Shown: positions 7,566 to 41,490 of the stretch, in pieces | Numbering within the stretch: the stretch's first letter is position 1 | Layout: every line of letters starts with the position of its first letter | Origin: Bryoerythrophyllum caledonicum | Lineage: Eukaryota > Streptophyta > Bryopsida > Pottiales > Pottiaceae | DNA length: 64,000 bases | Direction of reading: 5' to 3' | Assembly (NCBI GenBank): GCA_963971425.1 | Contig: OZ020514.1 | Span: 26,710,602 to 26,774,601 of the forward strand | Translations under genes and position numbers: made by a program | The notes under the pieces: model-generated | What the model was told of the DNA's origin: nothing | What the model saw: only the letters and a program-made list of their open reading frames with translations | Databases searched by the model: none

Positions 7566-8469
7566 TATTACCAAGAATGCTTAAATCAAAACAAAGTAGC
7601 AGATTTCATAACAAATTTAGTAATAGGGGGTCTGCTACCATGAACGAAGCACACTTCCCTTACTTTTTACTTCTATTCAATGTTCATTGTGTACTTTTGA
7701 CTTTAATACTTTTATCCTTGACTTTTATTTATAATTTCTATTTTTTACTTCTACATCTATTTTTTACTATTACCTTACCTTATATATGTAAAGTCTCAGA
7801 ACTTATCTTCATCCTATGAATTCATCTGTTGGGGTTGGTTCATCCATTAGAGTTAGGGTTCATTTGTTTGGGTTAGATTCATCCACTAAGCTTATGTCAG
7901 ATGAAATTAGTTAAGGAGGATTTAGGTTCACACTTGGCCGTATCCATTTTATCGTGGATAATACAAATAATATTCACATTGTTGCGTTTAGACTCCTCTC
8001 TCTAGGAATAGTACAAACAATGACATGAACCTTTGTGGTTTCAGTGCACATTTTGTTGTTTTACAAACAACACATACTTGGCAGAGCCCTTCACGGATTT
8101 GCCAATGAATTGATATAAAGTGTCATAGGCAGTGCGCTTGGCAAATGTACTCCCCACCAATTTTATTGCAACATTGTTGTAGAATTTTGTTTTATTCTAC
8201 TTATTGCAGTATGCAAAACCTTCGGCAACTCGTACTCAAGATTTGTCAATGAAAAAAAGTCCATAAATAGTATTCATAATAGAATGCCCATATTGTGAGT
8301 TGTAGACTAGAGGATCCTTTGGTCACAGACCACAACCATGGGCACGGTCTTAAATTCCAAGTACACCTTATTCTCTACTTCTAGTCAAAGCCACCCGGCT
8401 TACATCGTTCATGCCAATACACGCGAGGAACAACAAATGTGTTATACTCTAGATTCACTTAATTAAAAA
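7566..8469. other. Non-coding flank of the left DUF7869-type relic
   Basis: AT-rich; no gene seen. A 20-bp imperfect palindrome with GGATCC core lies at 8305-8324, just beyond where recognisable DUF7869-type coding sequence ends. Confidence 0.4.
8305..8324. repeat. 20-bp palindrome, GGATCC type
   Basis: The left half GACTAGAGGA pairs with the right half TCCTTTGGTC, with two mismatches. It belongs to the same family as the perfect copy at 15279. Confidence 0.7.
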
Positions 8470-9720
8470 AATGGTCATTGGGGATGTTTAGTGAAGAGTA
8501 TTATCTCCGTGGCATTAGATTGGATCCTCTTCCACCTGTAACTTGATGGAAGAAATTTGAGTGTGTCCATGCGTCGGATATGTGTCCCTATTTCCCTGGA
8601 ACAGTCATTCGCATTTGATGAGGCATGTTATCCGCGTTCTCATTGATAATTGCAGCAATGTTACCCATGCTTGCACGGTTTCGAGACGGGGACGTTTGAC
8701 GCCTTTGTTCCTATGCATTGATCACAACATGCCCGCCTTGTATATGTTGACATAGGTGTGAGAAGTTGACTTGGATATGCCATAAATTTTATTCCACGTT
8801 GTAGTGCAAACATCCATGCCAAGCAAAGTGACATACTCCTTTTATAATAACTTCTTAGGTTACGCACTTGCTCTCCGACAACAATTCCATATTTCCGCCC
8901 ATTGTCAAACTCCCTCAAATAATACCGCTTTCGGACAGAGAAGGTATCATTGCGACAAAAAATTGGAGTGCATTTGTCAAGGCAATACAATTGAGAACTA
9001 ACAACTCGAATCTCCAAAGCACTAGTTTTTATAGCATACAAATCACGCTTCTCTTCAATTTTCTATTTACAACGAATAAATTGGTATGGTGCTTTTGGTT
9101 GATCACTAAGGTGCCCGTTTGGGTCAACCATTTGAGGAATACAAAAAAATGCTCAAACGTCTCACTTAGACCACATCCAACTTCAAATGCGCATTCCGAT
9201 ATTGGCCATCTTTGATGACTTATAATGTCATTACAATCACCAATGAAAACATCAAACATTGTTACTTCAATGTTCTTCTCTTTTTATGTGTTGTTTTAGA
9301 ATGGCTTCCAAGGCAGGGAGTAGTTGATACGTCTAAAGGCCGTCAAATCCCCATCACTATTATTGTGCTTAACCACATGCCCCATCCAGTCCGCTTGTGG
9401 AACGTAAGGAATGGCATTTGGAATTTTTGATAAAATCTGACGTCTTGAAAGGATAGGAGGACTCTTTAGATAAGGACTACCTACTCGGCATCCCAGGGAA
9501 CTATCTTATCAATTGAATCAAAGAAGATAAAGACGCCCTCCAGCAACGGCTGTACAAGAATATTCCTTGCCTCATGTCAAATTTGAGTAGGTCTAGGCTG
9601 AGCCATATCGCCCATGGTGAGAGCGATGTCAACAGCAAGCCAATTCCCCGTTGGAGTAGATTGAATGGTGGTGACTTGTGCAACAATGCCGTGCGCAGAG
9701 TAGTTAAGTTGAACTTCCAT
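8470..9720 (-). pseudogene. DUF7869-type transposon protein, truncated copy A
   Basis: This is the diverged partner of the longer copy at 32.3-36.1 kb. Matching blocks in order: MEVQLNYSAHG-IVAQV near 9720; VFIGDCNDIISHQRWPI near 9250 (copy B: VFVGDTETIMSHELWPI); a Cys-containing module with CLDKCT and RKYGIVVG at 8890-9000; and, after a frameshift, YVTLLGMDVC and YGISKST. Then RNKGVKRPRL and NMPHQMR follow at 8630-8700, ending in RMDTLKFL near 8560. The later DUF7869-like domain is missing. Several frameshifts and stops break it. In this family the N-terminal Cys-rich part and the following KRPR block are probably DNA-binding; that is inference. The family assignment rests on copy B. Confidence 0.65.
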
Positions 9721-10660
9721 ACTTGGGAAAAATTCGGCTCAACAATCACTAGTCCAAGCGTCAGCGCCACGACATGATGGCTTACAAATATCATTGTGCG
9801 TTCTAAACAAAGAGGACATTGGAGGATCGCAGGATCCCAAGGTCCGATCCAAGAACCTGGACCTATGATAAAATCTTCACTTCTTAAAAGCATCGGAGAA
9901 TCCTCTGGTCTCTGCCAAAAAAGTCGCTGAATGATGGAAATTCCCGATGCTCAACTTCTTTTGAGGTTATCATTGGTACACAGCAGAACTGTACGGACAA
10001 GTTGTATGTAGTAGACCTACCGAACAGAGAGAAATGGATACGCAAATGATATAAATTGAAATACACAATCAATTTTCAAAGCTTTTGAATCAATATAGAT
10101 GTTGGTGGGTGAATGTGGAAGTTTGTGAATCAATACTGCAAGGACTAAGATGAATAAAGTTGCGAGGTTTATAGATAGTAAGCAATTGGGTACGGAAGAG
10201 TTTGGCTTACTTGTTACGGATGTATCAAGTCGACAAACCAATGCAATCTATGGAGGAATAACTCTTTGAAACGAAGTGATCTGCAACATTGCGCCTTAAA
10301 CAAAATCAAACTCCATTGAACGATGCAAGGATATCGACAAGATCTAAACAACCATTCAATAAAAATGCCTAGCTATTGACAACACTGTTACAAAATCAAA
10401 TCACATATTGATTATGCCCGGCAACGAAATCAACTTGCGATAAATGGTCAAGCACTAAGTGCAATGCAATGAAATCCATGTGCTAGAAACGCTCTGCAGT
10501 ATTCACGTGGCTATGCAATAAATGCCCTGTTTTGTGCTGATCATCCTGCACTACTCTAAACAATCCGCATCAATATGAATATTAGTACGTATTAGTAAAA
10601 TATGGCATTTAGTTGGTATCTTGAAAACGAGAAAGTAAAATAATCATAAGTACCGCAGTT
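9721..10660. other. Non-coding 5' flank of copy A
   Basis: Probable upstream region of the minus-strand DUF7869-type relic. Open frames here are not conserved with copy B. No other gene seen. Confidence 0.35.
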
Positions 10661-11005
10661 CATGATTTAGGGTTCAATGTAGGATTTAAAATAGATGATT
10701 TTCTAAATTTGGGGTTTCAACTTTCAAGGTATACCAATTTCAAAGTTCAAGGTTTAGGATATATCATTTCAGGGCTTAGGGCATTTCGTTTCAAGGTTTA
10801 GAGCATTTCATTTCAAGGTTCAGGGTTTAGGATATATCATTTTAGGGTTCAAGGTTGCAGATCCTTTGGGTTCACGATTCTAGCTATCAATTTTAGGGTT
10901 CAAGGTTGAGTGTAGGATCTAGGGTACATCAATTTAAGGATTCACGGTCTAGAATTTAGGATTTAGGATTTAGGATTTGGGATGTAGAATATTTGTTTTA
11001 GATTT
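10661..11005 (+). repeat. Degenerate AGGGTTCAAGGTTTAGG array
   Basis: Irregular repetition of AGGGTTCAAGG, GTTTAGGATATATCATTT and GGATTTAGGATTTAGG words. Some resemble the TTTAGGG plant telomere unit, but spacing and sequence are too irregular for a telomere tract. Confidence 0.6.
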
Positions 11006-13289
11006 CTAAGGTATAAAGGTCTAGAATGCAAGGATTATACATAAAAATTGAAGTTCAAAATTATATGCAAGCATTCTAGTAATCTCGATTATGGTTCAAG
11101 GAATAAATTACCATGTTCACAAGGATGTTACTTGGGTAGGTTAAAAACATTGTTCTTGATATTTGAAAGTTATGTGGATGGCAAGAACTCTGGTTGGTGA
11201 GATATATATCTTCATTTTAAGGTGAATTAAAGGATTTGTTGATGTCAATTACAATTGAATACGCATGAATATATATACCTAGGATTTCATAACAAAAGAT
11301 ATATTTAAATTTTTTTATTCAACACTATACAAGAAATACAAATGATAATACTATTCATTTAGTTTATGATCATTGATTTCATAACAAAAGATATATTTGA
11401 AAAGATATCAATAATATATTGGTGATGTCAATTTAAATGCACAATCATTTGTATATTCCATACAAGTTTATAACCACCTAAAATAATTGATAATATTATT
11501 ATTGCATTTTGATTAATTAGTATAAGTAACTTCTGAGAAAAAATAATAAAAATTAGCTAGCAAGAATCATAGCAAAATCTATGCATAATACTTATAGGTA
11601 ATGTGCAAGTGAGAATTTAATGCTTGGTATAGAGATATACTTTCATTTTAATTTGATAAAATGAGGTCAATTAAAGAGTTTGTAGATGTTGTAAATTAAT
11701 GTTGAATGTTAATAACGTGCATACCTAAAAATTTTCAACAAAATGAATATCATTTGAAACTCTTACTTAAATGATAATATTGTTATTGCATTTTGATTAA
11801 ATAAAATAAATGAATTCATATTATTACACAATGAACAATTTACTTTCTACCACTTAAAAGGAAAAATATCTTAAATTATTAATAGCCTTCATTAATTAAT
11901 TACATATTGGGATATGAGATATATTATTGCTGTACATTTTTATATTTTTATATTGCCCAAAAGATAATATGATATTCATTGAGGAAAAATATAAATATTA
12001 ACCCAGTTTTCCTAAAAAGTCTTTTTATTAAAAGAAACATCACCCTAAATCTTTCATATAGATTGTCAAATTTTTTAGTATGGTCTTTGATTCATCGACC
12101 ACCAAATTAAATATTAATTCATTGCAGTGGTAATCTAGTAGTGATTATTAAACAAGAATTATGACTTTAAGGGGCTCAACATAAATGATGTTTTCCTAAC
12201 CTAATATTCTAAACCCTAAACCCTACACTTATAATTTTTTACTAAAAAGATAAATTTTTCTTTGAAAAGGAATAATAAAGTGTAAATTGAAAGTAGTACT
12301 GTACAATCATTATTTAGAATTAGGCTTTAGAAAGGAAATTCTCCTTGGAAAAGAAATTTCTAATAGATGAGAAAGTGCATCATTTGATCTCCAACCCAAT
12401 ATGCAAACAACATCATGAGAGAGTAATATGTCTAATTAGCCATCACATAGGACGGCTAATAAGTCCCAATCATGAGCATTCTAGGCCGAACTCCACATGC
12501 GATCGCCCATCCCTCTCCCTTTGCCATTGCCATTCTTCTCCTCGCCATTTCATCTTCTTGCTTCAACCATTTCAAAGTCATGATCGTCGTTATTTCTGTG
12601 GCACTCAGTGTTTTTGAGTGTGTTGTTTTTAGACTTGCTTTGTGTTGGATTGCGTTGTATTGCAAGGAGCTATTAGCAGCTTTAAGGAGCGCTAAAGGGC
12701 TCTCAGGAGCTTTGACGGCCTATGACGAGGTGTGAGGAGCGGTGAGGAGCTATGAGGAACGTCTTGTGCGAGCCTAGTTTTGATGAGCTAATGTCTGAGA
12801 GTTGCTCTGTGAGGAAATTTTGCACCTATAGGTGAGAGTTGTGCTGCGAGTATTGTGCAATAGTTGTGCTATAAGAGTTGCAAGAAAGCTGAGCTCTCGA
12901 TTTAGGAGCGAAAGGGTGGTAAGAAAATAGTCAAAAAGTTGTTGAAGGGTAAGATTTTGAAGGATCCAAATGCAACTTCGAAGGCCGCGTTGTTACAAAC
13001 GGGCGTGGCGATCCTAAACACACGACATTGAAGATATTTATACAAAAACATGTTACTTGATTTAGAACTTTTGTTTAGCGCGTACATTTTGTATATATCA
13101 GCTGGTGTTTTCGATCCAGATGATTTTAAACTAACGCAATTGATATACCACTATGAAACGCAGATAATTCGTATCATGGCAGGCGCTTCTTAAGGAGCAA
13201 TCATGCAAGTGTTGGAGTACCTCCAAAGGTGCGTTTCATTTTCATATACAGACGGATCCTATGGTCTCTTCTAAGAGAGTGTTAAAATA
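11006..13289. other. AT-rich non-coding stretch
   Basis: No gene seen. At 12209-12226 there are two adjacent TAAACCC units, a telobox-like word. Short AGGAGCT-type repetition lies at about 12660-12760. Confidence 0.5.
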
Positions 13290-13789: not shown

Positions 13790-16066
13790 GCCATTACTCA
13801 ATCAAGACGGAAGACATGAACCCTAATTGGTGCCCAGTGAAGCTTGACACTGCAATCACAAAGGGTGAAGAAATTTGATTGTCACCATGCTGAAATTGAA
13901 CCCTCTCTTACTTTCTAGCAGAAAATGTCTTCGAGTGGGGCTTGGATTGGGAGAAAGAATGCAAGAAGGATTTGGTTTGAATTGCTCATGTTATTGCAAT
14001 ACAAAGCAAGGACCAAGACAATCCATATGTGCTATCGATGACGCACCTTGAGGTGTTGGATCTCAAGCAAATTGAGGAGTTGAAATTATTTCTTCTTGTC
14101 ATCAATGAATTTGTGCTCATTACGGGATGTTGTAGGGCATGTTGCCTTGTTATACGATCTTCAATTTTGAGCCCCAAGCACAAATCAGCCGTTCTAGATT
14201 TTGGCTTCTAAGTCTTGCATATGGGATCGTATACACCCATTGTTGCGTCAAACTAAGCCAAATTGCGGGCCAAGCGTGACAGTTCCAACTTAATGCAGAG
14301 GAAGAACAATTTGCCAATACCTACCAAGACACAAAAGAGGTCATGAATAACGGCTTCTGGTGGTGAAGACAAGCTTCCAAAGAAGAAGCCTTAGAGGAAG
14401 AAGTCGGATCTTAAAGAGGGCGACATGACATTGACAAAGGTTGTGGCCTTGTCGCACACAACGGTGATGGAGTATTCTCCAAAATATCTACAATCGATAT
14501 GATTGTTGACATTGATCGCCTGCATAGAGTCCTGCCGCAGAGGTGGTGTATTGTCCACTTAATCAGCTTTGAGTTGCTCAACTCGTTGACTAGAAGATGA
14601 CCATGCCTTCCTTCTTGGCATTATTGGAGCATTTGTATGTGATGCTGATTAGAAAATCTCCTTATGAAGCACACGATGACGACCTAGCATATAGGTCTAA
14701 AGTATACTTTGAGCAAAAATCAACAAAGAAAGACATCAACATACGGACCCACGACTATATCAACGGAGGCCAACATTGTGATGTTGCGTACTTTGGGTGC
14801 AATGGAGTATAAGGACAAATAGAAATTCAGGAGGCCAATGCTTGCTAGGATGTTCATCACCAATTGAGATGAGATGGAGGAATTAAAGAATGTTGTGTCA
14901 CAGCAGGCTAAGGCTATTCAAGAAGAGCAAATGTGGCAGTGTACCTGGACATTTTATATTACATCTAGGATTGATTGCTGAACTAAACCTTGAATACCTG
15001 AGCCGACTCTATCGTTGTACTTTAACTACCTCTATGGTCATAATCCTGACATCAATACGGGAAACAGCTTCCGTAAATTCTTTGGTAACGAATTGAGCTA
15101 CAAGCATATGATAAACGTAGCGGAATTTAAAGATTCAAGCTTTGAATGGGCTAAGGACGACCGCAACAATTACAACATTGAAGCAGTTAACAAACCGATT
15201 GGCTCGCTCTAGAAGAAGAATAATATCATTGTTAACGTTGGCAGGGGTTTTGCTATAACTTGGATTGGCTTGGTAAGTGACCAAAGGATCCTTTGGTCTC
15301 ATATTCGGCTCCTTGTGCTGCATCGCTTTATCCCTGACAGCCTTTGTATTTTCTTTGCGTGCATATTTGTGATCTCATCCAAAGTGTTGTTTCTTTTATT
15401 GCAAACAAAAGACGCTCAAGTCCTCCACATCGTCTACAACAAGCTTTACGAGGCTGCTGCTCAATCCCTTTGCCCGTGCATACTAAGAATCTTGAGTTGT
15501 GCTGACACTCACAGCACCTTGTCAAATGACACTAAGGAAGGAGAAGACTTCGCAAAAGACTAAGCAAAAGACTTTGCAAAAGAAGGAGCCCGCCGTAGCA
15601 CGTCAAACGAATGGTCAACAATTTCGGGGAGGGGCTACAAGAGGCTAGGACAATATTAGGACAAAGTAGAATTTGGATTTTAATGTCCTCCCAAAAAGTC
15701 AAAGACGTGACATAGACTCAAATGGAGACTCAAATTCGGGATTGCATTTCGAGTTTTTTGTGGAAATGTTGATGGTATCTCAACATTCAGATTCTCCAAC
15801 TTCAGGGAAAGATGTCGCGGTTTAGACTGAACTGCGAGAGAACAATCCCTTGAATGATCGTCACGTAGAAGTGGAGGTGGAAGTCTAGCTTGCAGAATTG
15901 GGGGCATGGTAATTGTCACATGCGCAAGATGACGACGACTTAGTAGTCCACAAGGTGTTGCAGCTTACACAGATATGTGGGTTAACCAAAGATAAAGCTT
16001 TAGAGTTTGATGAACACGGAGATTCTAGCGCTCCTCATCAAACTACTAACGATGTATGATGCAATT
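13790..16066 (+). pseudogene. Unrecognised multi-exon gene, left copy
   Basis: A degraded plus-strand gene of unknown function. The best exon is at 14,950-15,272, with YLYGHNPDINTGNSF and IIVNVGRGFAITWIGL, interrupted by a TAG at 15210-15212. It ends at the donor GGTAAGT, with the intron starting at 15273. Later coding-like sequence includes LYEAAAQSLC and HVEVEV-LAELGAW up to about 16060. The copy at 37.3-39.7 kb shares the block FGYDPNKTTTQSF...NVNGGAHFTYLGL and has an intron at the same residue and phase. The VNV-G block vaguely recalls the SAM-binding motif of DNA methyltransferases; I regard that as weak. The gene lies downstream of, and divergent from, the DUF7869-type relic. Confidence 0.5.
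15279..15298. repeat. Perfect 20-bp palindrome in an intron
   Basis: GACCAAAGGATCCTTTGGTC is perfectly self-complementary. It begins directly after the GTAAGT donor of the intron at 15273, so the transcript could form a 10-bp stem at the 5' splice site. Confidence 0.9.
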
Positions 16067-16193: not shown

Positions 16194-16268
16194 GATGAGA
16201 GCATATACATCTTCTTGCCCGGTAACAATCTACATATCTCCGCTTTAAATTTCCTCTTAGCTTGCATA

Positions 16269-16945: not shown

Positions 16946-19900
16946 GTAGTTAGCTTTGCTTTATTAGCATAATAGGTCCTAAGTAGAAAGAAGGTTTCAA
17001 TGCTAATCCGGCATCCATAAAAATGATAGTTGCGGAGCTTTTCTCGGAGGTCCGCAAATCGGAGTACGGTGGAGTCCACAACCGGTTGTTCCGGAGTGGG
17101 CAATATCTAGATCCGGAACCGTCATCATGACCCCAACGGTATCCGTACATCGTGCCAGATATAATGCGTCTGCCAGAGAAGGGCATCATCATTCTCGTTT
17201 GTCGTTTTTTGCGCTCTCTACTCTTGTTTGCTTCCCTACGCCTTTTGTCTTCGTATTCTCTAGTGCAGGAGTAGTCTAGAGACAAAGGTCTTTGTGAGGT
17301 TAGTGCGTGCAGGGTTTTTGAAAGATTGCGAGGCGCAAGCACACCGAGACGTGGGCCCGGATGGCGGGAAAGAAAGGCAAGACTCCGGCCGCCGGAACCC
17401 TACTACTCCAGAAGGTGGCGCTAGAGTGGCCAACCTCAGTAGAAGAGTTTAGGGTTTTAGAAAGCTACTTGGAGGTTATGGGTTGTAACGGACTTCTCGG
17501 AGCGCCATGGACATTCCCGAGTGAAGCGATGGTGACGGAGCTCTTGGGAAAGCCGCCAAAGCAATTCGAGGGACGCATTTGGGCGCATCCGGAAGGATGG
17601 ACTACAACGATCTTAAGGGACACCTATAGTCTCCGGCCGCGGGTAGTCAAGGTGACAAAGCGCGACGACAACCTGCTAAAGGGAGAGTTCCTACAGAACG
17701 CTAATCCTAAGGACGGGTACGTCCTCAGCGACCTAATGGATCCGGATGCGAGGTTAGTCGTCGCCTTCCTAAACCCTATCTTCCATCCGGAGAAACTGAA
17801 GAGGATAGTGGCGAAGTTAGCTAGTCTGATCCTAGGAGTGATGAGAGGGAAGCATACAGTGGACTGGGCAGCCGTGATGGGAGACTAGGTCGACCGGATG
17901 GTCAAGAACCTTTCGAAGGCCCAAAGACAACAACGCCCCTCTCAACTTATGTGACGCATACGTACGCCAAGAAGAAGATGTTGAGTCCGGAGGAGCAAGA
18001 CAAGTATGACAAACCGCTAAATATCTAGTCTTACGAGGAGTTGAAGACGGACCATGAGAAGCAGGTTTCGGAAGACTCGGGGTCGCAGACGTCGTTATCC
18101 CCTCTCATCGCCAGGAGATCCCAGAAGCGGAGCCGGTCAGTCCAGAAGACTCTGGAACCGCAGGTCCGAGCGAGCCTCTCAAAGACATAGAGACCCCAGA
18201 GCCCGACCAAGGTACCGCCCTCCGGAGCACCACCGGCCGAACCCTATAGCTCCGGACAAGAGCCGATACCAACCTTTACTCTGACAATGACCGGACGCAT
18301 TCCGGATGACATTGCTGAGCTCTGCCAGCATATAGTCTGGCGGGCAAGGATCCAGGAAGGAGAGATCTAGTAGCGGACACCCATGATCATCGCCATCATG
18401 GAGGAAGTAGGGACAAACGACTCTGTGGATCTCCTTCCACGACTCCAGCAGCTGAAGACCAAGGAGGTCTCGGTCCAGCAGTTGGAGCAGCAGCAAACCA
18501 CCCTCACCTAGACCAATGTCCGGCTCAGGAAGCAAGTGGAGCAGGCGGAAGCTATGTAAGAAGCGGCCCAACAAGCAAGAGCCGAGATGGAAGCAAAGGT
18601 CCGGACCACCATCTACGCCTTGACGGAGGTTTGCGCCGCCCTCGACATTCCAGTAGACACCGTCAACCGGCCTCTCCTCTACACTGAGAGCCAGGAGAAG
18701 AATGATAAACTCAACAGGGGGCAGATCATCCGATTTCTCTAAGATCACAGCCGGAAGATGGAGAGGACGTGGAGCAAGATGCAGGAGCTGGTGAAGAACC
18801 TGACCCCTACAGTCCCAAAGGCACCTGAGGTACCAGTTCTAGAGGCAACACTTGCGACACCGGCCAGAGCCGGGCCATCCAGAACTCCATCCGGACCTGA
18901 ATCTGGAAGTCCACCCGGACTTGTAGCCATATCACCACAGACACTCGCCGGAGGTTTCAATGACCTCATTGGAACTCCGGATTTAGCCTCTGTGATGAGC
19001 TGGAGCGGAGTGCCCTTCCCAAGCACGGAGACCCTGTAGAAATGGCAGAGTACCATGTTGGGAGGTCTCTCGCAGGAATCCCCTCTGCCCTTCCGGATTC
19101 CGTCGGAGTCTCCTTCTCCGGTTCAATTGTAGACTACCCCTCCACTTCGCAGCCTAGCAGCGACTGCCATGGATGTCAGCCCCAACGGAAGTTTTCGAGA
19201 CCTACCCGATCTTCGAGTCCGATCAATTATCCAATAGACCGTCACACCAACAACGGGGGATCCAGAAATGCCTTTCGGATCGAAGGATAAGGAGCTCGAG
19301 TTTGCGCCGGAGCCACGGGCTTCTACTCCGGAACAGCCAGAAGCCAACATAGGCTACAGCAGCAAAAGAGGTAACTCCTAGGCGTAGGAGTCTTAGAAAG
19401 AAGAACCAGATTTCTCCGTAGATAGGGTCTTTAGTGAGCTAGGTTTAGCAACAATTAATAATGGGACTCAAGGTTGCACTCGGCTACCAAACCCTAGGCT
19501 AAAAAAAACCCTAAACTGGTTTACAAGTTAGAAGTGAAAAAATTGGATCTTAGATCCATAAATTCCGGATTTGTGTTTTGAAAGCCGGATTTTCAGGGAT
19601 AAGATCTTTTAGGATAAAATTTCCCGGATTTCAAGCAAATAAGGTAGTCGTTTGATGCAAGAGTTTAGTTAGTACTTAATAGATGAGTTTAATTAACTTG
19701 TCATCTTGTTTTCTCTCATGAAGAGCAATTTTCATCTATCACACTTTCTCTTCTTGAACTTGTGGTGATTTAGTCTTCTTTCTTGTGAGAGAACGGATCC
19801 ATTGTGGTTGGTGTATTGTGATTTAAGTTCTTATGTATGAGTATTACAAGGGTTGCATCTAGAACGATCGGTTGGGGCTTGCATTGGTAGATCGCCCGGA

Positions 19901-20581
19901 AGAGCTGTAGGAGAGGTTGGATAGAGACCTGACAATCCGTAGGGACCGAAAGTAGCCAGGAGAAGGAAGGAATGTACTGCACGGGTGGGCCTGGTAGCTC
20001 TTAGGGCACGGACTATCCGTGTAAACCCAGATTTTTGTTAAGGCCAAAATTTCCCCTTATGATAGAGAAAAAAGCTTGATGTGTATGTCTAGAATGAAGT
20101 CTATTTAAAAAACAGTACCACTCATTCAGTAGAACCACTGTAGTATCAATCGGAATGTCGTTGTAGTCCGGATCAACTTTCCTGTGACCACATCCGAAAA
20201 GCCATCCGGATGATGTGAGAGCGTGGGTCTAGCAGCAACAAATCAATCATCGGTTAGCGGAGTAGGGAGAGTGGATGTCCAGCCACTTTAAGTTTCGGGG
20301 CTGTGGGTGTCTAGCCACTTTAAGTAACAAGATAGTGGGAAATCCGGCCACTTACACAAAACAGGATCAGTGGTACCCGGCCACTCGCTTAAAAACTCCG
20401 GAAGAGGCTCCGTCTGAAGTTATCCAGAATTCGTAAGGATCTGGAAACTAAGTGTCAGAACTCCGGAATTCGGAAGGATCCTCATGGTAGATTAGGAGAT
20501 GAATAGGAAAAACTAACCAGGGGATAGGGATGTGGTAGTTAGTTAGTTTGTACTTATCATTTAGAGAAGAAATAATAGGTC
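16946..20581 (+). mobile_element. Retroelement without polymerase, gag-like coding
   Basis: The borders are a best guess. The word ATAATAGGTC occurs at 16969-16978 and again at 20572-20581, each preceded by GGTAGTTAG, so these may be terminal repeats or a duplicated target. Inside are a GC-richer coding half (17361-19510) and a non-coding half rich in TCCGGA and GGATTTCCGG words. The non-coding half from 19.4 to 20.2 kb is clearly similar to the reverse strand at 36.1-37.1 kb, so this is a multicopy family. No reverse transcriptase, integrase or clear LTR pair is visible, so the element would depend on another for movement. It sits between two genes of the left composite element. Confidence 0.55.
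17361..19510 (+). pseudogene. Gag-like protein with Gln-compatible stops
   Basis: The first frame starts at ATG 17361 and runs 175 codons to a TAG. Translation stays protein-like to about 17925, then shifts frame. From there a single frame continues to 19510. The N-terminal part has W-rich segments (FEGRIWAHPEGWTTTILRD, AFLNPIFHPEKLKRIV). The middle, 18380-18620, is a Gln-rich coiled coil (LQQLKTKEVSVQQLEQQQ). The C-terminal half is Pro/Ser/Gly-rich. The coiled coil and overall layout suggest a capsid-like or structural protein; no zinc knuckle was found. Fourteen in-frame stops are present: twelve TAG, two TAA, no TGA. All are compatible with former CAG or CAA codons. Confidence 0.55.
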
Positions 20582-21066: not shown

Positions 21067-21770
21067 GCCCATCTTTTATACTTTTCTTTGTATATCTAAA
21101 GTACTTGGCGGTTATCTTCATGTTGCGCCCACCATGTCAAAGGTAAGGATGTCAAGATACATTGCTTTCCTTGACTTGAATGGAATTCTTATTCACAAGA
21201 CCCTCCTATGTTGAGAGTTAATCCCGTCAGACCCAAATGTCCCCTTTTCTTGGAGTGGTTGCATCAAGAGGCTAATGTTGTGATATAGAACTGCGGCACA
21301 AAGAAGAATGTTGAAAGTATGTTACATGATGCTCAGCAAGGTTCTAGAATGAATGTAGAGTCGGATCTCATAGTTTTTACCCAAGCAAATGTTATGAAGT
21401 CATCCTTTTCTAGAGCCGCAAATAGAGACAAGTTATACATGCTGAAAGACCTCTTGGTACTTGTAAAACAACATGATCATGTGGCTCATAAATTGACGTT
21501 GCTTATTGACAACAATCCTGAGAAGAATCTTCTAAATGGCAAGTTTGATGCTATTCATCCTCTCCCTTAGGTTGGTTTAATGTGAGACAAGTTCCTCAAT
21601 ACCGACCTAAAGATTTGGCTCATGAAGATGTTTTCGTCTAACCTCCATGTAGTAGAGTTTGTTTAGAAAAATGTCTTTCGTAGATGTGTGCGTGGTGCAT
21701 TCCGTTCAAATTATTACCTAAAATTATTTTCTTCACTCGTCCTTTGTATTCTTGTCTATTGATTGTTTAC

Positions 21771-21790: not shown

Positions 21791-22609
21791 ATTTTTTAAC
21801 CTCTCTCTTTTGTTATGTTATAGAAACTTGACATCCCAAAGAAAGTTGTCGTCTTTTCCATAAACAGACTGCTTTTTTTTATGAATATAATTATTCTACC
21901 CCTCGATGCTTCAATCCGAACAATATTATAGTTCAGGCTAGACTCTTAGAGTTCTTTAGAATCCTACTAAGATCCTTCTATGTCAGCATTTAGTCTTGCA
22001 TGGTACAATCGCGCCTAAAGAAGTAATAAAGACACGACTTCTTTTCATCTATGGATGGAACAAGTACTCAAGACTTGGACATTATCTTCTATACAACAAG
22101 GCTCTCCAGAGCCTCTCAACGGATCCAAAGACTATGAAGTTATGCCTTGCTAACAAAGTATTAATGGTTGATGACCAACCAATGCGGCATGTTTTCCACG
22201 AAAACGACGCTTGCTACTTTCCAAAGTCCAAGCTTGGTAAAATGGACTTACCCCGCATCCAACGTCATACCAGACATTGCAACAGCGTTGCATCTGTTCA
22301 TTTTTCCCCTCCAATCTTATTGCTTGGTGAAGAATTATCTTCTTTAGCATGAAATAGATGGAAAGTATATACGAAGAGTGCTTGAATTATGGCACATTGA
22401 TCGAGTACTACAAACTTTTTAGATGGTTCCTACATAGGATCGTTATTTATCTGGAGGTGCTAATTTCAATGAATTAAGTTACGACTTGTCAATGTTTTTC
22501 TCATACTTAGTGTCTAGGTGACTGCCTATTTGTTTCGTGCAGACATCATGCATGGTTGGATTCTTTTGTGTTACCGTTGTTGAATTGAGTGATCCGTCTC
22601 TTTGATATA

Positions 22610-31245: not shown

Positions 31246-32226
31246 ATGCACAAAGTAGACCTCCACGTAGGGGAATTTTTCCAAAAATTAATTATTGATT
31301 TTTTCCAAAAATCTGTTGATGTCCTCACCCTAGACAAGGGGGCGCATTGACGTCCTTGCCTTGTCCACCTAGGTGCAATGACATCTCCGCCCATACTCGA
31401 CTCGTCATTGCCCAAAAAACCCTAAAATTAAAATATTAGACGGTCTCCGCCTCATTGTATGCACCTCGCATCCTCCCTCTCAACCACTTCTTCAATAAAT
31501 AGGTTTTGGACGCCTGTGAGGTCTGCTAAATTGTATTTAAGATGCAATTGTATGTGTGTGAATTGTATGTAAGATGCTTTGCATAACTAACGTCCTCGCC
31601 CTGATCACTTAACCTCCCCGTTCTAATCACTTAACATACCCTCTCTGCATCCTTTGTGGCAACCAGGTGGCATCAACGTGGCAAACCGGTAGACGTAGGG
31701 TAAATGCCTAATTTAACTATATCAAATCTTTGCAAAGTCCAAAAATATAGATGAAGCTTCTGTTGGTTAATAAATATATGCATCTGGAGAAATTTCGAAA
31801 GGTCTAGCTGACCCAATTTGGATTGCATCATCCAAAAATCTCCAGTTGAATGTTGTGAAAACAAGTCAAGTTCAACGCTGCTAATAGATAATACATAAAA
31901 TAAAATGTTGTGATTAAGCACATACAACAAGATTGAAAATGCAAACACTTGTGATGCTCAACATGACAACGTGATTCAAGTAGACATGCGTAGAATACCT
32001 ATCACATGATATAAAGAATGAAATGATAGAAATGTTTGTACATCTGTGTAATTTGACTTCAAATGCATAAAGAAATTCGACTTAAAATTGCTGAAATCTT
32101 CTTGCGGAGATCTTCTATTCACAAGGCGGTCATGATCCATTTATAGGACTCCCGTAGCCCTTGTCCGCCTAGTGGCAACACTTGAAGTCCCAGAGATTGT
32201 CGTCGAGGTAGAGACGGTAAATCATG
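31246..32226. other. Non-coding stretch
   Basis: Short words resembling the GGGCGTGGACGT minisatellite occur in inverted form at 31330-31400. No gene seen. Confidence 0.4.
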
Positions 32227-32246: not shown

Positions 32247-34687
32247 AAATATTAACGTCTCACGTACTCTAGAGGACTATCCGTTGTAGAGTCTCAGCCA
32301 TTGTTTACTAACCTACGGAATTAGAGGAGCACATGATCAAATCTAGAGATATCCAATTACTTTTGAAAATGCAAATTATCTCTCGATGGTATAGTTACTA
32401 TAACCTCATGACTGCGACTAGGTCGTTGGCTAATATTGGCTCAGGGATCAATAACATTTGCTTTATTCAAGTTCAGAATGGCGGCCTCCTTCATTGCCTG
32501 CGGAATGGTCCTCGTATTCTGAGATTGAACTTTCGACCAAGTCGCAAAAATCACAGATTTCAGAGAACACCATTTAGGCTTCTCCTCGTCCTGAATCCAT
32601 GTGCCACCTCAATAGTCCTTATACTTCATCTTGTGATTTGTCTGCACGTTATTTGGTTTTCAATACTGAACGAGATCGTTCCAGTAGTTATCATTTCCTT
32701 CCACACTATTCACGTCGGAAACGACTCTTTCGTGCCACACAAAATAGATTGTTGGGTCGTCGAGACTTATTAAAACCCATGACCCCTTTTGAATGTCACG
32801 CCAAGGATTGAAACATGACTTTGGCGCTTCATTCCTCCGTCCGCAATAAGGTTTTGGCTCCTTATCTTCCACAGTAACATCCGTTATAGGTATAACAAGT
32901 CCTAGAGGATGCTCACCTCCTTGGCGGGGGACTCTCCAATCATGTTGTGGCCAGAATCCTTCTACTAGTTCAGACGGTGTCTGTGGAAGTAGCTTGTTGA
33001 GCTGGACGATGATGTCTTTCCAGTACGGTAGATAAAAAGAGATTGACTGTGCAAATCCTCCGCACTTCGAAACTTCTGATGCCCAGTAGTTGACATATTT
33101 CTGGAGCCCGAGCTTTAAAAAGTTCTTGTTCTCCGTCACTTTCCTTGCCTTGTCTCTCGCACGATCTTGATTTCCTATCTGGATTTGCTCCTTACTTCCC
33201 CACATTGGCCTAAAGGGGACGAGCTTAGGAGTGCCTGTGGGCAACTTTGGACAACCGTTTTCATCTAATTGCCACAACATTATTGATGGTCTCTTTGCGA
33301 GTAGCCACTTAGCGTCAATGGCATATTTCTTGAACTTCATGATAGGAATACCATCATCGTCAATGTAGAACTTGAAAAGGTACATATCACCTATTCCAAT
33401 AAGACATGCCGCACTATAGTTTTGGTATCTTTTGACGTAGGATTTGAAGTCAGCCACCTCTTGAAAAACTTCCAGAAAGCTATATTCGTTATATTGAGAC
33501 TTTTCACAATCTCAATTTAATGCTGATCTTATATTTGTAATTGATTTCTCAATTAATCTTATATTTTTAATTGAATTTTTTATTAAAATTGGGAAGTTTA
33601 TCCTTGACTCAAGAATAATCTATAATTAGAAATTCAATAAAATGCATTAATAAGCTCAAACTAGGTGCTGAAATTATAGGCAAAAAGTCTCAAAACTTCG
33701 AAATTGTTTCAGAATAATGAATATGACCATACGGCATGAATGCTAGTTTTTGCGACTTCATGAAAGCTCTCATGAATCCGCAAGAATATATATATTAGTC
33801 TTCTTGGGTTCTTTTGAAAGATGACTAAAATACACATCAATATCTTCATGCGTATGTCCGACCACTAAAAACCGACCAGAATCTCCTTTAATTCACCTTG
33901 TGCAATTAACAATGACAAGAAGGCCATCAAGTATTGGTTCTTGTTATCTTTGGCTGAGTTGTCAAGCTGCAGATATAATTCAGTGGCAAGAGTTTGGAAC
34001 TGTTTAAAAAACTAAGGTTTTCAGATACTAAAGCATTGAGGCACCTACTCTTCCCTCTCATTAGCGATTCAAATATTGAGTTTGCGGGTGGGTGCTCAAA
34101 GAGGGCGCGCGTCTCTTGTAGAGGTTCACTCTCGAGCCACCTAAAAAGTTTAGCCAGAGACGAGATAGTGGCGTTGGAATCACCTGGCCATAACGTAGGA
34201 GTGTAGTGTACATACGCCCCGTCCACATGACCATGTGCTACCATTCCGGTGACACTGATGGGAAGTTGTCCCTGACCCGATGTCGCTTTTGTTGTCTTCT
34301 ACATCATTGGAAGAGCGGTTTTTGCAGTATCCATCTTGTCATGAATGACACAAAGAAAGGTCTCCGATTTGTCCTTTGAAAGTGCTTCCAGATGGCTTGA
34401 TAGCAACATTTTCGAACAGTTCCTTTCTGACCCTGCTAACTATGGACTGATTTACAGGCACGAGTCCAAATGAGTCATTTGTCTGCAAAATGAATGAGCC
34501 AAGTGAAAGACGACTTATCAACGGAGTAATTTACATGTAGGATTAATTAGAGGATGGGAAAAATAGATAGTTTCTATTCGTTCATCAAATACATTAGGAA
34601 AGGAACAGTCCGAGATTTCTGGTAGGATTACATAGACTTCGGATATTTGTACTCTTTCTTCATGTCATACACATGTTAGCAAAGGAA

Positions 34688-34707
34688 TAGCCGGAGATCT
34701 CCGGTTG
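34688..34707. repeat. 20-bp palindrome in a copy B intron
   Basis: TAGCCGGAGATCTCCGGTTG, with a perfect 14-bp core, in the intron before the TNDSFGLV exon. Confidence 0.85.
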
Positions 34708-35680
34708 GATTTCATGGACTTTGGAGGACTATGGATATAGATAGACAACCCTAAACAATAACAGATGGGTTCCGTTGGTACTTCATTTACAGTGGCACAA
34801 ATTTGTTTCCGATTATTTCCTTCAGAAAGAAACGTGAGAGTGTCCATTCGACCATTTCCGTCACCCCGCATCTGGTGCGGCATTTGATCTACGTTGTCAT
34901 TAATAATGGACGTCATTGATCCCATGGCTTGAACTATTGCAAGGCGTGGGCGTTTGATCCCCTTATTTCTGAGAGCTCCATTCATAACTTTTTTTTATTG
35001 AAATCATCCATGTACGTGTAAAACGTAGACTTTGGAATGTCGTGGATAGTGTACCATGCTACCGCGCAGACCTCCGTTCCAAAGAGCGTGATATATTTTC
35101 TCTTCCAATCTCTTTTAACAGAGTGCATGTGCCCACCGACTGAGATCCCATACTCCTTTTTGTCTTCAAATGATTTTTCGTAGAATTTTTGTTTTACAGC
35201 TAGAGTCCGGGATTGAACAAAATGTTGGCAGCAATTTCTTGGACAACACCTATCAGAGCTAACCTTCCAAATTGCATCGTCGGTAGTCTTTTTGGTAAAT
35301 AGAGAGTCTTTCATGTTTAGGTCCTGTTGTCGGGAAATGAAGCTAATGGCTCTTTTGGTCGACCCCTCAAGTGAGCCTCCAAATCTTGATTTCTAGGCCA
35401 GGAAGCAAAATCATCAATTGTGCTTTTCAATGAGCAATCCAAAGGAAAACATCATTCCAAAATAGGCCACAATTCATGACTCATAATGGTCTCTGTGTCT
35501 CCGACAAAAACGTCTAGGACTACAACTCCGACGTGATCATCACCTAACCATCCACTACAAAAATGAACTGTTGGGAGTGCCGCCATGATCCCCCTGGAGG
35601 AGAGGAGAATCCCAAGTCCGTCGAACCACTGCACTTCAAGTCCAACCCAATGCTCTCGCGATACAAACGGTGAATCATCT

Positions 35681-35698
35681 AACCGGAGATCTCCGGTT
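35681..35698. repeat. Perfect 18-bp palindrome, AGATCT type
   Basis: AACCGGAGATCTCCGGTT is perfectly self-complementary. On the minus strand it reads in frame as part of IPTGDLRLDD, so here it lies in open sequence and not in an obvious intron. Confidence 0.9.
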
Positions 35699-36099
35699 GG
35701 AATCAGAACATATGTGGTTGTCCAGAGGACGGTCCGCAAGAGAGTCTCAACAACCGTACTGTAGCCACGTTGGCAAAGAATCAATGGTAAATCTTTGGCC
35801 GCTGCCATTACACCTATGGGTCTAAGTAAAACGAATTCCGTCGATCAAATGGTATGTGGATTCCTAGCCATTGTCCTACTGGGTGAACCTTAACTACTTT
35901 GCCAACTCCAACTTCGCCAAACCCTGGATTCAAGAGCTTCACTAACATTCCGATCCGCAGAAGATCCAAACTTCCAATGGACTTGTGGGATGGTTCATCG
36001 TCTCTCGCGTGATGATCATTTCCGTCACCCGGGAACTGAACTGCGACCATGGCAAGGTCGACTAAGTGACGCTCCCACAAATCACAGTCAGACATACTT

Positions 36100-37200
36100 C
36101 GTCTCTGACAACATCCGGATGGCCATCCAGACACGATCACTCAGAGGTTGATCCGGACTACAACGACATTCCGGCAAGTGTTGTCGTGATTCTACCGAGT
36201 GAGTGTTACGATTTGCAACGAGGACTCCTTCTAGACATACACATCAGGCCTTTTTCTACCTCAGGGGTAGATTCCGGCCTCAACTGGAATCCGGGTTCAC
36301 ACGGATCTTCCATGCCCTAGAGACTACCAAGAACACCATCTACAATACATCTCTTCCCCTCCTCGCTTTTTCCGGACCCTAAAGACTACTAGACACACCT
36401 CTGTAATACGTCTCCAGCTCTCCCGGGCGCTCTCCTAATGCAAGTCCCAACCAGTTACCTCAAGTTACAAACACAATAACGCTCACTACGGCAGAACCCA
36501 TCCACAACAAGACAAACCGCAATGGATTTGTTCCTCACAAAACGCTCAACATTAGGATATAGAGAAATATATTCAGAGGATAAGACGTCTTCTACGAGAG
36601 TAAACAAGATGATGAGCCTTTTAAGACTCATCCTTTAAGTACTAACTCAGTTCCTAACCTCAACTCCATTTTATTCCTAAGGAATCCAAAAAATCTTATT
36701 CTAATAGTAAAAGTCCTTATTCCCAAAAATCCGGAAATATGGATCTCAGATTCGGATTCTGGATTCCGGAAATCCGGAAATCCGGAAATTCCCCGAAGTC
36801 CGGAAATTCCCTGAAATCCAGAAATTTCCTGAAATCCGGAAATTCTTTCCGGACTCACAATTATCTAGACTTAGGCATTCCAGATGCAAACTTCTCTTAG
36901 TCTCGATCGTTAGTAGCCAGGTGCAATTCTGAGCCCCATCGTTAATTGCTACTAATTCAAAAGGGACTAAGGATTTTCTATAACTACTCCTAACTATGGT
37001 GTCTTCTTATTCCTACTACTCATATGCCTAGGTGATTCCTCTATCTCCTTCCCGGCGTTTGTCTTCTCCTGCGTCTCTTCCGACTGCTCAATTCCGGATT
37101 CAAAAATCGCTACTGTAATATTGGTCCTAATGTAATATTTTATTTACTAATTTTTTTGTAATCTTTTTATCAAGCCGGATATTAAGGCTACATCCGGAAC
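36100..37200 (-). mobile_element. Retroelement fragment, reverse orientation
   Basis: The reverse strand aligns by eye with 19.35-20.22 kb. Shared words include AATTAAYRATGGGRCTCA, CATCTTGTTT-CTCTC, GTTGGGGCTTGCATT-G, TGATGTGTATGTCTAGAA and CGGAATGTCGTTGTAGTCCG. The similarity ends abruptly near 36105, at the start of the DUF7869-type gene. The 36.74-36.86 kb part is a TTTCCGGA-word array. No gag-like frame is present. It lies in the divergent promoter region of the right composite element, so it either inserted there or supplies that promoter. Confidence 0.7.
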
Positions 37201-38755
37201 CGTGTGGGAACGGATTCCTACAAAAGTTAAAGCGAAAACCCTTGGTAGCAAACGACTTCAAACCGATATACAAGATGCGCGATGTCAACTTGGACTACTT
37301 GGCGGACTTGGTGCTTTAGAAGAAGGTTTGCGTGAAGTACTCGAAAGCAGCAAACCTATAAAGTAAAGGAATTAGAAGGAGACTCTTTGAAATGCTGCGG
37401 ATTGGAAGAGGCAAATTTGTGCCTTGAAGAATGAACTCATGTTGCACTACAGGCAACACCCCCTACCATCAAAGGTTGCGGACTTTGTGCCTTAAACCAA
37501 GAAACAGCGGGACGCCTTTGCAGCAGAAAAGAGGATTGATCGGGCCGAGCTTGAACTATGGATTGACATGGCCAATCAGACGTCGAAGGCAAAGGCATGG
37601 CTTTAAAGCCGGACACAAGCATTCAACACGACGACAAAGTCGTCAAAATGCTCGGAATCCTTGGTGGCGGCATGGGATCCACACATCTCCTCAGCGGTCT
37701 CGAGCAAAGACGTTGTGGTCCCAAACAAGGACAGAAGTCTCTTCTCCGACATGTACATGTAGAGGACCATGGACGGTTTAGTGGGAGAATTTGCTGCAGT
37801 TCTCATTCACGATGACGTGGGGGAGTTGTGTGATTCTACAAGACCGCACTTATACTTTTGGTTCCTCTTTTGTATGCAACACTCCGGACCCTATGTTGGC
37901 ATGCTTAATTACATGAGCCTTGATAGGATATTCAACCATGTCGAAGTTGTATACCAGGATGACAACGTCGGTGTCAAGTCACTAGCGGTGCTCATAGCAG
38001 ACGCTGAAGGATTTCATCAAATCGTGGGGCACCTGGAGATGCCGATGGTGGAGAGGAAGAAGAGCCTGTGGTCGTGGCATGTGGTCTACTACATCGCGAC
38101 ATCTTATGACGGATTTCCTCCGCCACCCATCAAAAAAGTGACGACCATGTACTGTGTCTTTTGCTTTGGATATGATCCAAACAAGACGACTACTCAATCG
38201 TTCAACGACCTTTTCGGAGAGAGCCCCGACCAACTTCTCCCATGTAATTCAGCCACCGAAGTGGCTTAGGTTACCAAAATGTGGCAATCCTAGGAGGTGC
38301 AGCAGATGCGGATCTTGGTTCTCGACAAACTCTTTAGTGGGTTCGTGAGGAAAGGAGTGGTGGTGGTCAATGTCAATGGTGGAGCGCATTTCACATACCT
38401 AGGCTTGGTGAGGATGACTACCTTTGTATCTTAATATGTTTCCACTATTCTTGCAATGTTCAGATGCTGTCGTTGTTAGTTAAACATCTGAATAGCTCAA
38501 GTTTTTTCTCCATGGACCAACAAAGCAGTGGTCCTTGAGATTAGAATACTCGGAACAACAAGAAAGGAAGGCCATCCAATAGGCAGAAGAGATATTTTGG
38601 TTCAATTTAATTGTCAAACTGCAAAAAAATGAAACCAATGCCGCCAAACCCGCGGTTGTCAAGGCCTAGTCTGCATCTTGATAGGGGAATGTTGTCATAC
38701 AGAAGCAAGCCACAAAGACTACTATAATTTAGGTATGATAGCTCTTGGTTTTAAA

Positions 38756-38775
38756 TTAGCCGGAGGTCTTCCGAT
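38756..38775. repeat. Degenerate palindrome, AGATCT family, intronic
   Basis: AGCCGGAGGTCTTCCGATG lies in a probable intron that begins GTATGA (about 38732) and ends GATATGTCAG (about 38825). Confidence 0.6.
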
Positions 38776-39174
38776 GTTTTTATGTACAATCCAGTTAAAT
38801 GCATCTTCTCTTATCTGATATGTCAGTTCTAATCTTCACCCAAGGAACTTTAAATGTGGATGCTCATCAAGTACTAGAGTCCGCTCAGGTGATTGTAGAT
38901 GAGCAATAATCAATTTCAAACGTTGATTTGGTTGCAGCTGCAAATGTAGTAGCTAGACTCAGATTGGACGGCCGTAGCAACCTTCGTACATCAAACCCAA
39001 CTCTTGATTGGTATGCCGACATAGGCCAGTCCAACAAACCTTCCTTTGCTTATGGAATGGCTAGTGATCAAGTAAGAGCCACTGTGGACATGTTCCTGCA
39101 AGATGAAGCTTTGATCGATGAGGATAAAGACCAACCTAGTATGATTCAGCCTGGCTTTCTCGATTTTCAGGAAG

Positions 39175-39194
39175 CATTCAAAGATCTCCGGCTG
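39175..39194. repeat. Degenerate palindrome in open frame
   Basis: CATTCAAAGATCTCCGGCTG, six of ten pairs intact. It reads as KDLRL in the plus frame, echoing GDLRL at the copy on the minus strand at 35681. Confidence 0.45.
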
Positions 39195-39959
39195 AATTAG
39201 ACACAGATTAAATTGGTCGAACGGGAGATCAAGGTCAAGGGTCTCAAGGACCATGGTGTCAAAGATGAAGCTGACACCATGGACTTACAATCTGTGCAAC
39301 ATACCATGGCGGAGTTACAAGTAATGAGCCCGCCGTGCACAAAAGGCAATGGCAATGTAGAGCTTCAGCAAGACAAAGGAAAGAAGGTGGCCACAAAGAA
39401 GAGGAGCAAGGGCAGCAACGACAGTACTGGCTTTGAGCAAAGATTGTTAAGGTCGAAGAAAGGTCAGGTAAAGCGATGCTCTTGGACAAGGCACATCGTC
39501 CTAAAACCAGCCACCTCTCCGCACCTTCTTCCAATGAAATAAGTAGAGTTGTCTCTATAGTGAGCTTACTTTGACTCTTTCATTTTTGGTTATCAGGATT
39601 CCTCAGGCTCTCCAGAAGCAATGGACGGGAAGCGGATCAAGAAGCACAAAGCATCGGAGGCGATCGTAGTAGAAGTTTGTAAGAACACAAAAGCAACTGA
39701 CACAAGTGCCTGATGTGTAAATCTCTAATTTAGTGTTGTTGTGTAAATAGTCATTAGTATAGAAAATCAAACATTTGAGGACTCTCAGAGCAAAACTTCA
39801 TTCTAATGCAGAATTTGCAGTTGTGGACTCTCAGAGTAGACTTTTACTTTAATGCACAATTTTCTTATTTGGGACTTGTACCAGAATTGTGGGTTCAGTT
39901 CAGAAGAAGCCAATTAGCATTTTATATTGGCCTAATCAGGTGGCTTAAGTAACTACACC

Positions 39960-41490
39960 ACGGATGTATCATGCCATACTTGACTTGAATGGAGTTCTGG
40001 AGCATAGAAGAGAACACCACAGTGGAGAACCAAGGGTTATCAAACTTAGGCCCGGTTGCGGTGTCTTTCTCGAATAGGTCCGGGATAAAGCAATTCTATC
40101 ATTTTGGAGCAGTGTCACGGACAAGAGTATGCCAAAAATTCTTCTTGAATTGGAGAAGCATGTTGCTTTCACAGCGAATGCCATGAAAATTCTGACAGAC
40201 CGCATGCTACACATCCACAACTTAGTACCCACTCAAACTGGACAAGCCTATCTTTATTGAAGACCTTACAGTTTATAACAAGACAGTGAATCCCAAGTCT
40301 CCCCATGATGTCTTGTTTGTGGATGACACCCTATTAAAGATTGTGCTTAACAATCCCTTTAGCGCAGTGCACCCGACTTCTTGGCATGGAGATCCAAATG
40401 ACACCTTCTTAGAGGCGAAGTTAATGCCTTGGCTCGATGGACTTTTATCTTCAAACTAGGATATTCTTGCCTATGTTCGCAGCGTCCCTATACCGGACGG
40501 CTATCCTCTTAAAAACAAGAATTCTTCTATCGTTGTCGCTATTCAGAAGGATTCTAGTTCAACATAAGACGGACATTTAATGCCATTGGATTTTTTGGAC
40601 CATGTACTTTTGATCATTGGACACCATAAGTGGTTTTTCCGCAACACATGTTTCAAATTTTATTTTTTTTGTAAATCACATACTTTGCGGACCTTCCTTT
40701 GATTTGATATTTCCTACACTGCGCCCTTCCACGTTCGTACTTCTTTCCTCTCACACTATTGTATATTCATGCACCTTTCAAACATCATCGTCAATGTTGT
40801 CGTCTTATGTTATGGATGTCTTCAATTAGTCGGTGATCTCCGGTTGAAATTGTTCAGTGATGGACAAACTTGACAGCATTTGGAGATCTCGGGTTGAACC
40901 CATTCGTTGATGCACAAACTTGTAGTCATCCGGAGATCTCTAGTTCATTTCCATTTGATACGTAGCCCCACATCATTTGCTCTTTCCTATGTTTAAATTT
41001 TGATGGTGTCATTGTGGCTTCCAATTTGCAGGTGATAGTTATCTCTCTCCGCAGTCCTCTCTGCTCCAATGAGGTACTAGATTCGGTGAAGTCCAACTCC
41101 GTGCAGTTGTCGTCGTTTGTGGAGACAATAGATGTTATTTGAATACTCTTGCGGTGTTTCAACGCCGCGATATGGTCGTCTGTACTTCCTGAAAGTTTGA
41201 CAGAGGTGGTTGATATTCTATTGCCCCCGGAAATCTTATCACAAGTTCTTTTTGTCTGTGGCTGTAAAAGAACTTGAAGGCCATACGACTACTGTTATTT
41301 TTTAAACCTATTGAAAAAGACCGTTATAGATAGAAGTACAAGGCAATATTTGTGGCCTAAATGTGTAGTGGTTGCAAATATTGATCCATACCTTAATCTT
41401 CGGATGGCTTTAGTTTGTTACTTGCAATATTTATCCCATGAAACTGGATGGCTTAGTGTATTTGTAAAGATCTTAGATTGACATAGTTCT
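39960..41490 (+). pseudogene. Tandem HAD/NIF phosphatase-like gene, right copy
   Basis: Module 1: HAILDLNGVL at 39973-40000, LRPGCGVFLE, ILSFWSSVTDKS at 40095-40130, a frameshift near 40230, and motif IV DVLFVDDTLLKIVLNNPF with HPTSWHGDPNDTF at 40300-40410. Module 2, after an intron of about 300 bp: ISLRSPLCSNEVL (41040), FNAAIWSSVLPESL (41160-41200), LFVCGCK (41250) and CVVVANIDPYLNL (41370). DLNG in place of DxDx(T/V) leaves only the first motif I aspartate. The order and spacing of modules equal those of the left copy at 20.6-22.35 kb. The intron between modules holds three tandem palindromes. It is the third gene of the right composite element. Stops and a frameshift make it non-functional. 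Confidence 0.72.
40820..40965 (+). repeat. 50-bp tandem repeat with palindromes, 3 units
   Basis: Three units of exactly 50 bp with palindromes centred at 40836, 40886 and 40936, each near CAACCGGAGATCTCCGGTTG. The spacer carries TTGATGCACAAACTTG-like sequence. It lies in the intron between HAD modules 1 and 2. Confidence 0.85.

Follow-up and report, generated by a model that had tools for sequence, protein, structure and literature searches.

A large three-gene DNA transposon with lineage-specific palindromes as the probable source of two decayed loci in a moss genome

We consider a stretch of 64,000 nucleotides from the moss Bryoerythrophyllum caledonicum (the window, positions 26,710,602-26,774,601 of sequence C1; source genome of 437,360,962 bases in 894 pieces), in which an initial annotation had described two diverged copies of a palindrome-marked element, here called copy 1 (7.9-22.6 kb) and copy 2 (31.7-41.5 kb). 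Each carries a DUF7869 gene, a gene that was not recognised (gene 2) and a NIF/HAD gene, and the two loci are very probably degraded copies of a large cut-and-paste DNA transposon that contains all three, each from one of two related lineages. The analysis demonstrates past mobility of this element, its ends and footprint, its gene order, and both the confinement of the palindromes and their association with lineage.

We begin with a copy in which the frames are open. The element on sequence C12, 17,712 bp long and read within 30 kb of that sequence, has the DUF7869 gene running leftward, with profile positions 2-642 in one frame, and gene 2 and a NIF-like gene with two HAD modules running rightward, their frames also open. 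At the guessed end positions of six other copies, the end falls inside two of six left and five of six right stretches, and the points at which similarity to C12 ceases agree to about 10 bases. The termini and target duplications that the initial annotation proposed to seek by whole-locus alignment emerge for the copy 2 lineage: the ends are 26-bp inverted repeats, ATGCTGTATTTAACTATTTCTGGACT, of which the C12 right end is a variant. The exact 26-bp sequence occurs 67 times in the genome and its reversed control not once, and 54 of the 67 have a scored gene-2 and/or NIF match within 30 kb (both at 36), a few at an odd distance or orientation. Seven pairs of opposite-facing ends, perfect on both sides and spanning 16,517-26,171 bp, enclose NIF in every case and gene 2 in six; all seven are flanked by an exact 4-bp duplication (CAAT, TTAA, AATG, AAAG, ACAA, ATAT, CAAG) and none by one of 5 bp. 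With the duplications read by eye at C12 (CTTG) and C10 (TTAT), the count is nine of the nine copies read at both ends. Terminal inverted repeats (TIRs) of 26 bp together with exact 4-bp target duplications, the usual criterion for cut-and-paste transposition, therefore define a multi-gene cut-and-paste DNA transposon.

The next question is how regularly the three genes occur together. Searches with gene 2 (query P0081; best 92 of 919 first-look candidates scored), NIF (P0073; best 150 of 2363) and the subfamily of DUF7869 to which the element's gene belongs (P0001; best 67 of 4500) recover the same order at dozens of dispersed loci. A NIF match lies within 6 kb of 66 of the 92 scored gene-2 matches, in every case downstream and in the same orientation (mean 0.79 and maximum 4 under random placement) and mostly at a spacing of 1483-1507 bp (range 1273-2948), while a gene-2 match lies within 25 kb of 49 of the 67 scored DUF7869 matches, divergent in all 49 (random mean 1.84, maximum 7). 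NIF is found near 53 of the 67, divergent in 52; gene 2 or NIF accompanies 58 of them, and both accompany 44. Because only the best matches were scored, those without a partner (26 of gene 2, 84 of NIF, 9 of DUF7869) are no evidence of absence. Neither independent scattering of the genes nor a single-copy host gene among them, either of which the initial annotation had named as fatal to its proposal, is what we find, though DUF7869 also forms a separate high-copy family of single open reading frames (ORFs). This domain is far more widespread than the element: a family search gives 3611 candidates, of which the best 150 were scored, all above the cut-off. The eight family members examined belong to a different subfamily and are mostly long single open frames, and other DUF7869 copies in the window flank have no gene-2 match nearby. 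DUF7869 matches range from amphioxus to mosses and liverworts, and no relatives were found in prokaryote genomes and plasmids. The high-copy single-ORF family (1087 amino acids; loci L029 and L030) has copies on C9 and C3 that are 98.8% identical over 5.9 kb.

Both window loci have the order and strands first described, DUF7869 on the minus strand and gene 2 and NIF/HAD on the plus strand, and each pair of counterparts outscores all 1000 shuffles: the Smith-Waterman score is 323 for the N-terminal half of DUF7869 (shuffle maximum 57), with 79 for gene 2 (maximum 53) and 130 for NIF (maximum 49). The features are collected in Table 1. Copy 2 is collinear with C12 in pieces within 32455-36096 and then at 37224-37603, 38358-38424, 39949-40384 and 40981-41415, at 66-81% DNA identity. 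Its DUF7869 gene, 71-81% identical to that of C12 in four pieces of DNA over 32455-36096, exceeds the Pfam cut-off in two of three single frames; NIF module 1 contains an in-frame stop (40075-40077) and has a weak final part (40463-40549), and HAD module 2 is weak on its own (41158-41238, expectation value E 0.038).

In copy 1 the DUF7869 profile matches at 9583-9723, 9143-9277, 8835-9059, 8728-8838, 8603-8718, 8496-8576, 8044-8193 and 7930-8001, the start of the core being matched at 8193-7930; no core was found left of 7930 by profile search, and the window frames give no Pfam match for this gene. Searched with a profile built from copy 2 and three database relatives, the window ORFs other than those of copy 2 are headed by the gene-2 exon at 14994-15209 (E 6.2e-4); the next exon, at 15213, comes seventh and by itself is without significance (E 1.4). 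A profile of the database relatives alone missed copy 1. The NIF stretch 21295-21564 reaches E 4.7e-21 by itself with a profile of relatives. Two parts of the original description thus hold for copy 2 and in part for copy 1: a DUF7869 gene is present in copy 2 by PF25273, while copy 1 keeps the N-terminal half and the start of the core, the rest of the core being absent; and the tandem two-HAD gene is borne out in copy 2, where the second module is matched by the open C12 copy, while that of copy 1 is weak. The boundaries have also moved, since copy 1, once begun at 8.3 kb, reaches left to at least 7930, and copy 2 starts at 31704 instead of 32.2 kb. An inverted repeat at 41597-42380 that resembles a miniature inverted-repeat transposable element (partial match at 24696-24789) was considered as an element terminus and rejected, the distances being unequal and none lying near the left ends; it may have disrupted the right end of copy 2.

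Table 1. Features of the two loci, in window coordinates.
Feature	Position	Strand	Evidence
Copy 1, decayed DUF7869 gene (N-terminal half and start of core)	7930..9723	-	profile matches
Copy 1, GGATCC-core palindromes	8305, 9825, 9891, 13315, 13382, 13450, 13517, 13583, 15279, 16269, 21047, 22610		12 sites
Copy 1, gene 2, last part before probable splice donor	14994..15277	+	37.4 bits joined
Copy 1, 555-bp stretch, inverted homologue of copy 2 DUF7869 5' flank (36103..36647)	19667..20221	+	68.6% over 567 aligned columns, E 8e-40
Copy 1, NIF/HAD module 1	21131..21663	+	PF03031 7.5e-7, joined pieces
Copy 1, possible HAD module 2	22113..22229	+	weak, E 0.25
Copy 2, left terminus	31704..31757	+	41/54 bases match C12 left end; maximum of 50 simulations 32
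Copy 2, AGATCT-core palindromes	31830, 32228, 34689, 35681, 38758, 39176, 40828, 40878, 40928		same word as C12
Copy 2, DUF7869 gene, nearly full length, broken by in-frame stops and frameshifts	32444..36098	-	PF25273 E 5.6e-31, joined pieces
Copy 2, DUF7869 5' flank, inverted homologue of 19667-20221	36103..36647		68.6%, E 8e-40
Copy 2, gene 2, broken	37131..38431	+	37-84% protein identity to C12 by piece
Copy 2, later gene-2 exon	39201..39539	+	39% over 61 residues to C12, E 9e-7
Copy 2, NIF/HAD module 1	39949..40549	+	PF03031 7e-13, joined pieces
Copy 2, HAD module 2	40966..41478	+	47-58% protein identity to open C12 copy
Further NIF-like fragments beyond copy 2	43664..45129	+	44914-45129 E 6.4e-5; 43664-43756 E 0.021

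Each copy has a palindrome variant of its own, as was first noticed, with a GGATCC core in copy 1 and an AGATCT core in copy 2. At up to 5 mismatches GACCGGAGGATCCTCCGGTC has 12 sites in the window, all within 8305-22629 (0 in each of 5 simulations), and AACCGGAGATCTCCGGTT has nine, all within 31830-40945 (1.3 expected by chance). Five of the copy 1 sites form an array of about 67-bp period between the divergent genes, and the site at 15279 sits just within the gene-2 intron. Over a contiguous 264 kb both words are confined to their copies (12 of 12, and 6 of 6 at up to 4 mismatches), and single imperfect sites used as seeds give 0 to 3 extra matches more than 10 kb away. A general genomic repeat thus finds no support in these 264 kb. 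The pattern is sharper in the 30 kb of C12, where all 23 sites within 2 mismatches of CCGGAGATCTCCGG (consensus ANCCGGAGATCTCCGGNT) lie inside the element, 15 of them perfect, and the 12.3 kb of flank has none. Some stand close to the two ends and others on either side of DUF7869 (3' and 5'); five cluster near the gene-2 start (an approximate position), and probable introns hold more; 21 of the 23 are outside coding stretches as set by hand from profile matches, and several are within longer open frames. A palindrome was also read from protein letters alone, through introns of P0080-P0082 and P0018, and is not used as evidence.

Does the word of copy 1 mark a lineage beyond this one locus? Its exact 18-base core, to which the window locus itself has no exact match, occurs at 46 genome sites (control 0) in 13 places, 42 of the 46 in nine clusters of 2-11 kb. 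A search with the copy 1 NIF exon separates 12 of the best 149 matches besides itself, at least 66% identical, from the remaining 137, which are below 60%. By our count by eye, the GGATCC word lies within 6 kb of 9 of these 12 closest relatives and of none of the 137 others, and 9 of the 13 palindrome places carry a NIF match at least 66% identical. The word thus follows a lineage, since the close NIF relatives carry it nearby and the others do not.

What the three proteins do can be approached from their motifs. We infer that DUF7869 is the transposase of the element, because it has conserved acidic motifs (LQLDN..DNKN and GHTHEDID; LQLDNSAKDNKN, VGHTHEDIDAYFS) and because another multi-copy DUF7869 family has none of these partners in view; the protein is predicted to be catalytic, a candidate for the RNase H-like DDE type, and would cut and join the element ends. 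The palindromes are putative binding sites of an element protein, either the DUF7869 protein or, speculatively, that of gene 2, which would pair the ends and switch the element promoters. If they are sites of a protein that the element encodes, the word should co-evolve with that protein and differ between lineages. For gene 2, a role as DNA methyltransferase was prompted by P0071 and rejected, with no relation found and no methylase family match; P0071 itself combines DUF7869 with a DNA methylase match that, at 25.7 bits, falls just short of the cut-off of 26.7. A GGQH motif in the N-terminal part of gene 2 presumably resembles ParB/sulfiredoxin and serves as a lead only, the search for a ParB-like family finding no support in Pfam, NCBIfam or PHROGs. 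The NIF-like protein most likely would act on host transcription or on element proteins, modulation of host transcription being a speculative form of this. NIF/HAD proteins usually have DxD as motif I. Here both window copies have DLNG as motif I, as do the database relatives (7 of 7), which makes classical phosphatase activity doubtful, and judged from this motif the protein may not be an active phosphatase.

Joining these parts, we tentatively propose, at somewhat less than an even chance, that the element represents a new superfamily of eukaryotic DNA transposon whose genes form a single regulon. Its palindromes would be operators, specific to each lineage and placed close to both ends and in the 5' regions of the divergent genes; a protein of the element would recognise them, linking the pairing of the ends to gene control, and a new lineage would arise with the word rewritten at all sites.

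Other origins for the two loci have to be weighed. Three ordinary host genes that were duplicated together long ago, as one segment, would also leave order and strands matching in both copies, and plants have NIF/HAD genes; yet such a duplication does not lead to dozens of dispersed loci of the same order with inverted repeat ends and 4-bp duplications, and since the target duplications are present in all nine copies read at both ends it is refuted for the family and hardly credible here. The initial annotation had left a choice between a large DNA transposon and a virus-like integrated element. TIRs, the exact 4-bp duplications and the repeated co-occurrence in fixed order favour the transposon, while the virus-like half finds no viral relatives in our scans: an integrated virus or virus-derived element would fit the large size and the several genes, but the three proteins have no relatives in viral contigs (in scans seeded from a few short patterns), gene 2 has none in phage records, four C12 ORFs match no phage family, and no capsid or polymerase family appears among the window frames and the subset of element ORFs scanned. 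We consider this origin very improbable. As for the superfamily, Sola makes 4-bp target duplications, and the element could accordingly belong there with DUF7869 as the Sola transposase. The likeness lies in the TIRs and the 4 bp found in 9 of 9 copies; the present element differs in its three genes, its palindromes and its length above 16 kb, and the curated bivalve Sola1 elements are far shorter, with a mean of 5445 bp (PMC10294476). We doubt that the element is a Sola member, while giving the idea real weight.

The regulon proposal has a rival of its own, in which the palindromes are passive relics and not protein sites: short repeats that local duplication or tiny foldback insertions spread, that conversion made uniform and that were passed on with the element. 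Tandem arrays, of about 67 bp in copy 1 and 50 bp in copy 2, are what such a process might leave, and 32179-32296 duplicates a coding stretch that contains a palindrome. Passive relics fit poorly with 15 perfect sites among the 23 of C12 while the flanking bases vary, with sites near both ends and in 5' regions, and with a word that differs between lineages as a set; on balance we find them unlikely. Several observations weigh against our own account as well. Neither end of copy 1 was found in the window, and the right end of copy 2 was not found either, the best window match to the C12 right end (33 of 54) lying elsewhere in the window. The GGATCC lineage outside the window is assessed by NIF and the word only. 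One perfect C12 palindrome, at 10095, is within the DUF7869 coding sequence. Sequence profiles of the three proteins find no counterpart among solved structures, in the case of NIF at a threshold of 0.001. Finally, palindromes may be a feature of the host, or of more than one type of element, since a hAT-type element in the flank, unrelated to ours, bears a family of its own. In the 264 kb, scanned for palindromes without bias, this is the third strong family, GGCGGAGACGTCTCCGCC; 15 of 18 matches to one seed and 13 of 14 to another (perfect) lie within that element. Three weaker sets, each of 3 or 4 sites, appear besides.

Compared with the known families, the transposon stands apart in its duplication or its ends. 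hAT elements make an 8-bp target site duplication (TSD), piggyBac elements have a TTAA target, and En/Spm (CACTA) elements have CACTA ends, a 3-bp target duplication and subterminal motifs bound by TNPA. Here the duplication is of 4 bp, the target is TTAA in one of nine copies and the ends are ATGC; hAT, piggyBac and CACTA are excluded because the duplication or the ends differ from those of each family. En/Spm resembles our element in that a short motif recurs many times near the ends, where a protein of the element may bind it; ours differs in that the motif is a perfect palindrome that is also found in 5' regions and probable introns. The hAT-type element of the flank resembles ours in having several ORFs, bounds set by a TIR and a TSD, and its own palindromes mostly inside, and differs in its 8-bp duplication, its 11-bp TIR and its genes. 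It is 12,069 bp long, lies from 78,097 to 66,029 bases upstream of the window start (TIR CAGGGTTGTCA, TSD TATAGGGT), and by eye its ORFs are kinase-like, RING-like and a 941-residue transposase-like frame. A eukaryotic DNA transposon with an accessory gene is also known in the composite-like KolobokP transposons, where the accessory gene is reported to be a homing endonuclease and the transposase is of Kolobok type, unlike here (PMC9587614).

A few neighbouring features are recorded for completeness. At 51700-53900 the window has a piggyBac-like match (DDE_Tnp_1_7, E 4.9e-15), together with a hAT C-terminal match that stays under the cut-off, and 59093-62202 is a region of dense inverted and direct repeats of 70-82% identity, about 3 kb across. 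Just outside the C12 element (L032 3090-4106, minus strand) is an ORF of 339 amino acids whose only match, to DUF1015, is below the cut-off; it has a DGNHR motif, in which it resembles ParB-like proteins.

A literature search found no paper naming DUF7869, and by title no multi-gene element of this kind among works on dispersed or subterminal palindromic repeats, giant transposons with accessory genes, or NIF with transposons. DUF7869, a Pfam domain of unknown function, gains a testable role as the transposase of an element with defined ends and footprint. A palindromic word that runs through a whole element and differs as a set between lineages lets one test directly whether a DNA-binding protein and the sites it recognises evolve together, and a large multi-gene transposon is added whose accessory genes have no explained role.

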